Assembly: GCA_027052175.1 (NCBI GenBank)
Contig: JALUFE010000076.1
Coordinates: forward strand, 1-35,184
Reading direction: 5' to 3'
From: Helicobacteraceae bacterium
Lineage (GTDB): Bacteria > Campylobacterota > Campylobacteria > Campylobacterales > Sulfurimonadaceae
DNA: 35,184 nt
Of the stretch, positions 1 to 35,184 are shown piece by piece (within the stretch, counting starts at the first letter, position 1; each line of letters begins with the position of its first letter). The translations under genes were made by a program, and so were the position numbers. The notes under the pieces were generated by a model. It saw only the letters and a program-made list of their open reading frames with translations, had not been told where the DNA came from and did not search any database.

Positions 1-124
1 TTGACTCATTCTTTTGTATTTTACTTCTCTTGGCATTGTTGACTCCTTGGAATCTTTTGCTTCAATTTCAGCAACTTTTATTCCATTCGGTCAGTGCCGG
101 CATTTGTTTTGCTATAATGGAACG

Positions 125-625
125 ATGAAAAAGTCGTTAGAACGTATTTTTCTCGGTATCGTCCTCTTTGCATCGGCAATTTTGGGCTACAACTACTATA
201 GTGAATACCGATTCGAAGAGAATTTCGACAAAAGGTATCTGCCTCCTTTACATAAAAAAGAGCAGGAAATTTTGCGAAATATGCAGCGCTCCTTTGGATA
301 TACCGTGCGATTTCCAATCGTTATCACGGAGAAGATACCCGGACGCATCTACGGATTTGCGACATTCAACAAGAAAGGGCACGTCGTTATCTATCTTAAC
401 AAACGTGTCTTTAAAGAGAGTTTCGACTACATTCTCGATGATGTACTCGCACATGAGTATGCCCACGCACTGCTGTTGAGTCGTGGCTATATCAATGATG
501 CAGAGGGTGGGCATACACCTTTGTGGCAGCGAACTTGCAAAGCCCTTGGCGGACTACACTGTGAACGCTATGTAGACAGAGACGACGTAGTAAGCAGAAA
601 ATTGCGAAAAATTTTAGGAGAATAA
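125..625 (+). CDS. SprT-like zinc metalloprotease domain protein with N-terminal membrane anchor
   Basis: ORF 14..625; likely start ATG 125 (MKKSLERIFLGIVLFASAILGYNYY). Contains HEYAHALLLSRGY (HExxH) and GHTPLWQRTCKALGG typical of SprT-like proteins. Confidence 0.8.
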   Translation: MKKSLERIFLGIVLFASAILGYNYYSEYRFEENFDKRYLPPLHKKEQEILRNMQRSFGYTVRFPIVITEKIPGRIYGFATFNKKGHVVIYLNKRVFKESFDYILDDVLAHEYAHALLLSRGYINDAEGGHTPLWQRTCKALGGLHCERYVDRDDVVSRKLRKILGE

Positions 626-626
626 A

Positions 627-1253
627 ATGGAATTACAATATGTTGGACCAAAACCCATTATAGATCAACACGGAATCGATTTTGACAAAAGCGAACCGGA
701 CAGATACATCTTTATCCATGCAGTTTTGGAACTTATAGAAAGCATCGAAGCGTGTTACGACAACAGTTGCAAGGGTATTATCGATATAACCGAATACACT
801 CACAAGCACGTAAGCGGCGCTCAGCTTGTAGAATTTGCAAAAAAGCATTGTAGCGAGCAGATCGAAGAGATCATAATAGAAAAAGAGCTGCGACTCGACA
901 CGCTCATCTCAGAATACAAACAGCACGTCCACGACAACGATCTGCTACAAATCGAAGACAAAGAAGCTTGGCTTGGCAACATCGATATTATGGAAGGATA
1001 CTACAAACAATTTGTCCAAAACGAAGTGGTTTACGAGTGCCTGCTTGATATACTCGCACAAAACCTTTACCAAAAAAGGATCAAAGAGATCATCTTCGAT
1101 CTTGGCAACAATTACGGATTTGTCTTCACTTATCTGCAAAATGTTCTAAGCGAACATAAACCGCCACTCGATGCCGAGATGCAAATAGAGGTAAGAGAGG
1201 GTCATACCGTAGGTCATTTCTATATCCGTCATCCCCAAAAGGCAAATATCTAA
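627..1253 (+). CDS. hypothetical protein (208 aa)
   Basis: Intact ORF directly after the SprT-like gene, same strand, 1 nt gap with upstream aggagaataaa. No motif recognised. Confidence 0.7.
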   Translation: MELQYVGPKPIIDQHGIDFDKSEPDRYIFIHAVLELIESIEACYDNSCKGIIDITEYTHKHVSGAQLVEFAKKHCSEQIEEIIIEKELRLDTLISEYKQHVHDNDLLQIEDKEAWLGNIDIMEGYYKQFVQNEVVYECLLDILAQNLYQKRIKEIIFDLGNNYGFVFTYLQNVLSEHKPPLDAEMQIEVREGHTVGHFYIRHPQKANI

Positions 1254-2623
1254 CCCCTTTGAATCTCCATCAGCTCTATGAGCTTGGCGACGCTCTCTTC
1301 AAAAGCTGCGATCTCTCCGGCATCTTGCATGAGGAACGCCTCCATCGCCTCTTTTTTCTCTATCGCCTCATCGAGCTCCACATCGCTTCCTTTTATATAG
1401 GCGCCTATACGAATAAGCATCTCATTCTCCTTGAGCAGTGTATAAAGACGTCTAAACTTCCTCGCCGCCAAGGCATGCTCTTTTGAAATGATGTCGTTCA
1501 TCACCCGTGAAGCGGAGTTTAAAATATGTACCGGCGGGTAGATTCCAAAGTCCGTCAGCTCCCTTGAGAGGACAATGTGCCCGTCAAGGATAGAACGGGA
1601 CTGATCGGCGATGGGATCACTCATGTCATCTCCCTCGATCAGGACGGTGAAAAAGGCGGTAATGCTGCCTTTGCCTTCCTCTTTACCGGCACGCTCCATC
1701 AGCTGTGGCAGTAGAGTGAGCGAACTCGGCGGATACCCTTTGGAAGTGGGCGGCTCACCAAGAGCGAGTCCTATCTCACGCTGCGCCATTGCAAAACGGG
1801 TGACGGAGTCCATGATAAAAAGCACGTCTCTACCTCGCTCCTTAAAATACTCCGCCACGCTCATCGCACTGAAAGCTCCATATTTTCGCATCAAAGGACT
1901 GTCGTCACTCGTCGCTACGACAATGACCGTATTCGTCAAATCGCCTCCGAGATTTTTTTCGACAAATTCGGGCACTTCACGCCCCCGCTCCCCAATAAGA
2001 GCTACCACCTTGATTGGTGCTTCGCTACCGCGAACGATCATTCCCATCAGCGTCGATTTGCCAACCCCGCTGCCGGCGAATATTCCGAGTTTCTGCCCTT
2101 TTCCGCAGGTAAGCAGACCGTCGATACTTTTCACACCGACGGAAAAAACTTCATCGATCATCCCACGTTTCATAGCCTCTATAGGAGGTTTGATGATAGG
2201 CTGTTGCGAAGTGGTCTCTATGTTCCCTTTCCCGTCTACAGGACGCATAAAAGGATCGACGACTCTACCAAGGAGCGCTTCACCTACGGGGATGTTGAGC
2301 CCACTTTGGTCCATAAAGACCCGATCACCCGTCCTCAGCCCCTCGACAAAACTAAAAGGAGTGATGTAAAATTCGCGTCCCACCAACTCCGTTACCATGC
2401 CTATCGTCTCAAGCTCGTTTTCCTCGGAAACTATACGCACCATGTCGCCGATGCCAACTTTCAATCCGGTGGCTATGATAACGGTGGCATTGATTTGAGT
2501 CACTTCTCCAAATGCAATCGAAAGCTTCTCTTTGGAAAGTTTTTCGGAAATTTTTGAGAGACTAATATCTCGCTCCTGTAGGAGAGTTGATAAGGGAAAA
2601 AAACTCAGCCCGAGTTTTCTCAT
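1250..2623 (-). CDS. fliI: flagellum-specific / type III secretion ATP synthase FliI
   Basis: Walker [52 protein letters not shown]. Start uncertain: M34 of the ORF (2623) overlaps the 3' end of folE. Confidence 0.92.
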
Positions 2624-3137
2624 CCTTTTTGAAAAGTCCTCGCAAAGCCGAAGAGGTAGTGGTGGAATTGATCTTCTCCACCCCCCGCATCTCCATACAC
2701 ATATGACGTGCCTGAATGACAACGCCTACCCCTTTTGGATCGATCGTTTCCATGATCGCATCGGCTATCTGTTCGGTGAGCTGCTCCTGAATCTGCATGC
2801 GTCTGGCGAAGACATCGACCACCCGCGGAATTTTCGAAAGGCCGACAACCTTGCCGTCGGGAATATAAGCTACATGTGCCCGCCCGATGATAGGGAGAAG
2901 ATGGTGTTCACAGGTAGAATAAAACTCTATATCCTTTATAAGTACCATTTCGTCGTTACTGCTTGTAAAAAGTGCGGATTTCAGTATCTCCTCGGCATTT
3001 TGCTTATAACCGCCAAAGATGAACTCATACGCCTTTTTGACTCTTTTTGGTGTATCCAAGAGTCCCTCTCTCTCCGGATCCTCGCCTATATGGCGCATCA
3101 TCACTTTTACCGCTTCTTCAAACTCTATATCATTCAT
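2562..3137 (-). CDS. folE: GTP cyclohydrolase I
   Basis: [53 protein letters not shown] and HMCMEMRGV signatures of FolE. Confidence 0.95.
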
Positions 3138-28561: not shown

Positions 28562-28659
28562 TCAGCTATGAAATTTTAACAAAGAAGCAAAACACTCTTT
28601 AGTTTTTTGGAAAATCCGCTTTTTCTTTATTCTTGTCGTTCGATTATGAAATTATCTTT

Positions 28660-28711
28660 AGACTTCTTGTAAAACTCTTAAATAGTCTCAGAGGAGTTTT
28701 GCAAGAAGTCT
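28660..28711. repeat. R1: 52-bp palindromic element with 20-bp terminal inverted repeats
   Basis: AGACTTCTTGTAAAACTCTT-aaatagtctcag-AGGAGTTTTGCAAGAAGTCT; arms match except two T/C differences. Right arm is identical (inverted) to the start of the 35021 module. Confidence 0.85.
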
Positions 28712-28843
28712 TTTGTATAATAATTGCAGACATTTTACCTAAAAAAATACAATACCCATATTCCTCTTTTTCAAAAAAGAGGTTACTTTGATTTTTTGCT
28801 TCACACAAATGTGAAATCATTTGTCGTTGGTCACTCATTTTTT

Positions 28844-31474: not shown

Positions 31475-31564
31475 TGTGAATAATACTGAAATTATTCATA
31501 AATCGAGGTTAAATCAGGCGTATTTACAGGACTTTTTCAATGTGAATGGATATTATGTGAATAA
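31475..31564. promoter_or_regulatory. putative oriC1 DnaA-box cluster upstream of dnaA
   Basis: Three same-orientation boxes: TGTGAATAA 31475-31483, TGTGAATGG 31541-31549, TGTGAATAA 31556-31564 (reverse complements TTATTCACA/CCATTCACA). Confidence 0.7.
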
Positions 31565-31775
31565 CTGATCTTACGCACCATATCATAAACTCGAAAAGAG
31601 AAAACCTTTGTCTTGCAGCTGGCACTTTCTCTTCTCGCCTTTTGGGTTGCTTTTGTGACATACGATTGCTGCGTTACATTTTCCTCAGTGTAGCTACGGC
31701 TATGCTTCGTCGGTGTAACTTGCACTTGGATATCGCTAAAAGCACTCAGTTTATGATATGGTGTGTAAGGTCAGT
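31564..31775. repeat. R4: 212-bp element with 28-bp terminal inverted repeats
   Basis: ACTGATCTTACGCACCATATCATAAACT (31564-31591) against the reverse complement of AGTTTATGATATGGTGTGTAAGGTCAGT (31748-31775), two mismatches. Internal hairpins at 31592-31637 and around 31690-31703. Confidence 0.85.
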
Positions 31776-31869
31776 GAATGACTTTTTTTGTCTTTGAAAA
31801 GATTCTCTATCTGTTTGGTTATAGAATCAGATATAATAATATTTAATGATTATAAACAAATTAAAAAAA

Positions 31870-31885
31870 TGTTTCACATGAAACA
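31870..31885. promoter_or_regulatory. parS-like ParB binding site
   Basis: TGTTTCACATGAAACA: 7-bp perfect inverted arms, one substitution (G to A, centre) from the canonical parS form TGTTTCACGTGAAACA; origin-proximal. Confidence 0.65.
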
Positions 31886-31901: not shown

Positions 31902-32202
31902 GTTATTACTCCACCAATCAATTATCTAAATCAGCAATGCAGTGATTTTGTTCATAATCAAGGCAATTTCTTGCAGGTGTAGCCGTAGCTAAGTTTGGAA
32001 ATTTTTTTGCGAAATGTCGCAAGCTTTCACTCCTCCCATAGGGCGTTATAAAGAGAGCTTTACTCTTCGTTAGATAACCTTCACCGTAGCGCCCGCTACG
32101 CTGAAGGTTATCTGCCTTGATTAAAACTCTCTTGATAACGCTGAGACTACTTAGGAGTTTTGCAAGAAGTCTATTGAGTTAGTTTGTTGGTGGAGTAATA
32201 AC
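31902..32202. mobile_element. R2: 301-bp MITE-like element with 16-bp perfect terminal inverted repeats
   Basis: GTTATTACTCCACCAA (31902-31917) and TTGGTGGAGTAATAAC (32187-32202); internal inverted AATCAAGGCA/TGCCTTGATT, strong hairpin 32072-32113; no ORF. Confidence 0.75.
32072..32113. other. long hairpin inside R2 (12 bp + mismatch + 7 bp, 2-nt loop)
   Basis: AGATAACCTTCA-C-CGTAGCG-CC-CGCTACG-C-TGAAGGTTATCT. Confidence 0.9.
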
Positions 32203-32402
32203 ACCGTCAGATATGCCTTTTTCTTGTTGCCTTTTTAGAGATGAGATGATTTTCGCTCATCTTTGTACGGAAATGACTTGAAGTAGAATGATTACGACTG
32301 CATCGCTTTTCATACAAATGCGGGCTAGACGCATCTCATTAGATATGAAATTATTTCCTTCGCATTACTTAAAAGTTAGGCGGAGTATAAGTAAAATAAG
32401 AA

Positions 32403-34976: not shown

Positions 34977-35020
34977 ATGTGTGAAATAATACCTTACTTT
35001 TCTTACATTTTTCTTTCTTT

Positions 35021-35184
35021 AGACTTCTTGCAAAACTCCTAAGTAGTCTCAGCGTTATCAAGAGAGTTTTATTACTCCACCAATAAACTAACTCAATTTT
35101 AGATGCTGCAATCTTGTTCCTAATCAAGGCAGTTTCTTGAAGGCATAGCTGTAGCTATGTTGAAAGAAACTAACGCAGAGTAGG
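35021..35184. repeat. R3: repeat-family copy truncated by the window end
   Basis: First 50 bp (35021-35070) are the exact reverse complement of 32123-32172; followed by ATTACTCCACCAA, TAATCAAGGC and a hairpin at 35131-35171, all paralleled in R2. Confidence 0.85.

Follow-up and report, generated by a model that had tools for sequence, protein, structure and literature searches.

The bcr1 repeats of the Bacillus cereus group are mobile repeats with a conserved secondary structure. The REP/REPIN sequences associated with RAYT consist of 20-40 bp units whose palindrome is tagged with GTAG at one end (PMC3733652), and share with the elements described here the nature of palindromic intergenic DNA repeats. 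Chunjie (Geobacter) and QMITE2 (Coxiella), both included in a review of prokaryotic MITEs (PMC10969869), are likewise small intergenic elements with terminal inverted repeats (TIRs), direct repeats and a foldable core. Sulfurimonas, Arcobacter, Campylobacter and cruciforms are unmentioned in that review, and our literature search found no paper describing the superfamily reported below and no relevant one on MITEs with Sulfurimonas or Arcobacter. Further likeness exists to the IS5-family insertion sequences (IS; DDE_Tnp_4) and MITEs, with respect to the outer TIR of our type I elements (TAGACwTCTTGCAAAACTC) with TA flanks, the non-coding nature and the size below 500 bp.

The window, i.e., the whole stretch of 35,184 nucleotides analysed, belongs to a Sulfurimonas-like MAG that is 86% complete. 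A sequence of 301 bp, herein designated R2 (31902-32202), is bounded by exact 16-bp inverted arms, GTTATTACTCCACCAA (31902-31917) and TTGGTGGAGTAATAAC (32187-32202), of which the complementarity is 83% when lengthened to 30 nt; the number of perfect 16-bp inverted pairs, at most 1 kb apart, expected in the window by chance is about 0.01. No ORF of 80 aa or longer overlaps R2, and R2 lies 17 bp past a parS-like site, a DnaA-box-like site being about 340 bp away. An earlier note on this DNA had described the perfect terminal repeats, the lack of an ORF and this position correctly. With a probability of about 0.92, R2 is not an origin element but a scar beside parS, left by non-autonomous DNA transposons (MITEs) nested in one another. 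The features in and around R2 are as follows.

31870-31885, unstranded: parS-like site TGTTTCACATGAAACA, kept between dnaA and hisF in both syntenic sisters (L043 and L044)
31904-31991, plus strand: family B MITE, of which the left part is present, with TIR TTACTCCACCA... preceded by TA; 81% to L024 positions 1-88 and, over 61 nt, 95% to the copy in L023
31980-31991, unstranded: TAGCCGTAGCTA, the 12-bp hairpin tip common to A and B, forming the B-to-A junction (by alignment)
31980-32173, plus strand: family A MITE represented by its interior and whole right end, with TIR TAGACTTCTTGCAAAACTCC of IS5 type; 94% to L010, the match running from 31971 to the exact right end
32062-32122, minus strand: family A copy of module M; the hairpin contains the internal loop CAAGGC/AACGAAG and ends in the tip GTAGC-GCTAC (covariance model, 69 bits, and fold)
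32173-32201, plus strand: terminal repeat from the right end of the family B MITE, with TA directly after it; 96% to L024 positions 243-270
32199-32371, plus strand: right part of a family D MITE adjoining R2, ending in CATTACT-TA, the left part missing; 81% to L166 (type copy) positions 103-273

The genome-wide search with R2 yielded copies of its parts but not of R2 itself: the 301-bp unit is single-copy, whereas A, B, C and D, the component families, all have multiple copies. Over positions 79-272, R2 resembles family A, of which more than 10 genomic copies match with identity up to 96%, and positions 1-90 and 272-301 match family B. Family A has ends of its own (TAGACTTCTTGCAAAACTCC), and family B, with a complete 266-bp copy in L024, has the ends TTACTCCACCA(A/G)(C/T)AAACTAACTC. 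Upon alignment to copies of these families and of family D, the A, B and D segments are sharply bordered. R2 is chimeric, made up of MITE families A and B from the same genome, and located beside half an element of family D; this further fragment (32203-32371) had been overlooked in the earlier note. The long inverted repeat AATCAAGGCA ... TGCCTTGATT proposed there is present with respect to both sequences, but these are the feet of the hairpins of two different elements, B and A, respectively, and do not form a single palindrome.

As a MITE should be, R2 is shorter than 500 bp, devoid of ORF, furnished with TIRs and located at a site that is empty in relatives, but it exists in one copy and not as a multicopy dispersed unit; because of this, R2 is MITE-derived, yet not a MITE family of its own. 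The possibility that R2 represents one intact, separately mobile 301-bp MITE family is very unlikely: the perfect 16-bp ends flanked by TA would agree with it, but the unit is single-copy, the interior is that of family A joined to the ends of B, and R2, with its 301 bp, is one of the six elements that fail the three-arm test passed by 117 of 123 elements (see below). A single intact MITE was rejected on account of the mosaic borders. The MITE-like nature originally assigned to R2 is thus valid for mobile DNA in general (multicopy parts, site empty in sisters), but not for one intact element, R2 being an A/B chimera joined to a truncated D. The statement that no clear target-site duplication is visible needs a correction, in that TA flanks both ends of R2 (GT-TA-TTACTCC ... 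GGAGTAA-TA-AC) and had been counted into the terminal repeat as first delimited. The left and right flanks of this TA/TA pair, a candidate duplication, derive from different contexts, however.

The simplest order of events that we infer is the following. Family D would have been inserted into a TA just 3' of parS, family B into a TA within D, and family A into a TA close to the right terminus of B; a deletion from the TAGCCGTAGCTA hairpin of B to that of A would then have followed, and a further deletion would have removed the left part of D. Nesting was observed independently near the end of the window, where B is located at a TA inside A (35020-35161). Other elements identified in the window are listed below.

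28659-28712, unstranded: 54-bp mini-element consisting of two family A (type I) end repeats only, between gyrB-like and dnaN-like ORFs
31565-31774, unstranded: R1, a truncated family C MITE, TIR CTGATCTTACGCACC...GGTGTGTAAGGTCAG, with 7-bp duplication TGAATAA/TGAATGA and an M copy at 31666-31725
35020-35184, unstranded: family A MITE interrupted at a TA by a family B MITE, ended by the contig edge, with an M copy at 35122-35181

The left duplication of R1 overlaps the DnaA-box-like TGTGAATA at 31556 (31556-31564; right copy 31775-31781), into which R1 appears to have been inserted. End-repeat pairs about 50-70 bp apart, resembling the mini-element at 28659-28712, were also observed in G003, G004 and G062.

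The dnaA-hisF region was compared with that of two sisters carrying hisF upstream of dnaA and a DnaA of 90-91% identity, L044 (a contig of G002) and L043 (a contig of G003). Both sisters keep parS and the TGTGAATA boxes, and neither R1 nor R2 is present. The parS-hisF spacing is 85 nt when 31904-32371 is removed, versus 68 nt in L043 and 95 nt in L044, and from this empty-site spacing R2 together with the D remnant is concluded to be inserted DNA. The empty site that the earlier note had suggested looking for therefore exists, and its alternative, that R2 could be single-copy and conserved at this site as an origin component, is contradicted by the absence of R2 from the dnaA-hisF region of both sisters. 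A functional role of R2 in the oriC/parS region, for instance as a DnaA, ParB or unwinding element, would be in keeping with its closeness to parS (17 bp) and to the DnaA-box-like site (about 340 bp), but is extremely improbable, given that both syntenic sisters lack R2 while retaining parS and the boxes and that parts of R2 are found at many unrelated loci. R2 is a mobile-DNA scar and no origin component. As the intergenic DNA of the sisters has diverged, the native status of the left flank of R2 cannot be proven base by base. Two separate observations concern L043. Between its dnaA and parS (within positions 1-3000), it has a lipoprotein-like ORF containing repeated segments, where a different ORF is present in the other sister; this marks the dnaA-hisF interval as one in which genes are frequently replaced. 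Directly after parS, it carries TTGGTGGAG, identical to the first nine bases of the right end repeat of R2, probably by chance.

Families A, B, C and D have unrelated ends and a common hairpin module, M, in which the internal loop CAAGGC/AACGNAG separates two stems and GTAGC-GCTAC forms the tip. Using a covariance model trained on copies of A, B and C, with D outside the training set, a total of 62 M copies were identified in the window's genome, D included. Among 200 relatives, 72 contained M; a wider sample, searched more strictly, gave 48 of 397 genomes of the phylum Campylobacterota, representing several families of Campylobacterales. In an analysis of 80 copies (67 loci, most of them held out), both sides vary in 18 of the 19 pairs, and the covariation was 0.524 versus 0.167 after shuffling and at most 0.114 when slid; the alignment of these copies was fitted to the model, by which the pairing is somewhat inflated but the conserved loop is not. 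The loop columns consist of one base at 82-100%, save for the variable bases of the 3' strand, and the middle stem takes 49 sequences among the 80 copies. No Rfam family scored above its gathering score, and searches of plasmids, phages and viral contigs gave no copy of the elements. The complete genome G361, from another family of the order, contains 13 equal-score M copies with type V ends, GGGCACCTCTAATAACCCC.

A total of 123 distinct elements were obtained by extracting the inverted repeat around each M match. Since 235-325 bp were allowed in this search, the observed peak in length is no artefact of selection: extracted lengths are mostly 264-276 bp, and core lengths of types I and III-VI mostly 264-269 bp (271 bp in type IV). 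A three-arm fold was predicted for the 117 elements mentioned above, with a basal stem of 31 bp (median) and arms of 39 and 36 bp, and 116 contain a CCY...RGG centre. One arm bears the invariant internal loop CAAGGC/AACGNAG. The energy z-score of a family A copy folded as DNA was -12.7. The median global identity among 14 elements of twelve end types was 64%, compared with 59% for shuffled sequences. These observations altogether place the parents of R2 in a Campylobacterales superfamily of about 264-270 bp with at least 10 end types and near-random identity between types, which keeps its shape, length and loop while its sequence is nearly lost. With respect to gene context, 26 elements are in tandem, 15 in divergent and 5 in convergent intergenic positions and none lies inside an ORF, as judged by rough ORF calls; a role as transcription terminator, considered as one candidate, is disfavoured by this context.

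Based on the conservation of the shape, we tentatively favour the reading that the folded DNA arms aid the mobilisation of the elements or their survival and persistence. It is also conceivable, on a rather speculative level, that the mobile superfamily is defined not by sequence but by a folded DNA shape of about 266 bp, with three arms of fixed geometry and an invariant CAAGGC/AACGNAG loop, and that this shape is recognised by protein and the ends are exchangeable, so that one chassis would be used with different transposases. The main alternative, somewhat unlikely in our estimate, is that the shape is a neutral by-product, all elements descending from a single ancestor and the palindrome arms being kept paired by templated repair. 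The families are indeed homologous, and quasi-palindrome correction is a recognised mutational process, but such correction should erase a mismatched loop, and the loop CAAGGC/AACGNAG is instead the most conserved part, near-invariant between stems of such variable sequence; in addition, the length is held at 264-270 bp despite near-random identity.

M and the three-armed shape could instead represent a non-coding RNA carried by the elements, as the strong covariation and the invariant internal loops might suggest, together with an excess within M of G-T wobbles (73) over A-C mispairs (51, of which 35 are in one column). This is unlikely. Mispairs on the M-bearing strand, counted over copies that are not phylogenetically independent, were 282 G-T versus 197 A-C in the first arm but 142 versus 384 in the second, and no transcript strand is favoured by these opposite biases; with a single transcript, both arms should be biased toward one strand, and the pattern therefore fits a two-fold symmetric DNA element weakly better. 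The lack of an Rfam match also speaks against RNA. Movement of the elements as REP/REPIN-type repeats by RAYT (Y1) transposases has a minimal probability. They are palindromic and intergenic and carry GTAG in a hairpin, but at its tip and not at its foot; the window's own genome, G003 and G004 all bear M with no match to Y1_Tnp, and M and Y1_Tnp co-occur at chance level (33 observed versus 29 expected).

Type I ends are also those of an IS5-like IS found between TA flanks in G055 and G007 (916-919 bp; IS ends TAGACATCTTGCAAAACTCA), and the G055 copy carries HTH_Tnp_4 and DDE_Tnp_4. L329, L339 and L331 have TAGACATCTTGCAAAACTC or TAGACCTCTTGCAAAACTC ends with TA flanks, L329 containing ORFs of PF13613 and PF13359, and broken ends of a similar IS are present in G099. 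Family A therefore shares both TIR and target-site duplication with an autonomous IS that carries a transposase, and passes the tests of an IS5-type MITE save for the cognate transposase in its own genome, no PF13359 match being found in the 86% complete assembly of the window's genome (G000). We infer that IS5-type (DDE_Tnp_4) transposases would bind the shared terminal repeat, duplicate TA and move family A in trans, a mode of mobilisation that is well supported. Exact TA was found on both sides in 41 of 56 intact elements (type I, 19/25; type II, 11/18; type IV, 8/9; type VI, 3/4). Type III is instead flanked by 7-bp direct repeats, perfect in 2 and matching at 6 of 7 positions in 4 of 14 cases, which suggests that it is likely moved by a different transposase. 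PF13359 was detected in only 4 of 200 relatives and was not found in most M-bearing ones; from this rarity, many copies may be relics or dependent on other transposases. Mobility today in the window's genome is unproven. The complete genome G125, with 13 DDE_Tnp_4 matches (mostly open frames of 329-339 codons) and just one M element, represents an unrelated IS expansion.

A suspicious repeat near the origin thus turns out to be nested mobile debris. The presence of a MITE superfamily held by shape, with covarying arms, an invariant loop and at least 10 end types, suggests selection on the fold of a non-coding transposon, and renders testable whether MITEs owe their spread to their internal DNA (or RNA) structure and why one interior is combined with ends that differ in the length of target duplication.

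As to the known systems, bcr1 is set apart by description, being shorter and a single sequence family of other hosts. The REP/REPIN sequences differ in that the Campylobacterales elements require no RAYT. Chunjie and QMITE2 are single families of variable length (178-235 bp for Chunjie), and a fixed three-armed shape common to families with unrelated ends is not described for them (PMC10969869). From the IS5-family systems, the type I elements differ by an interior unrelated to the IS, as in the type II MITEs of the same review (PMC10969869), and by the three-arm interior shape, which is also found under at least nine other end types.
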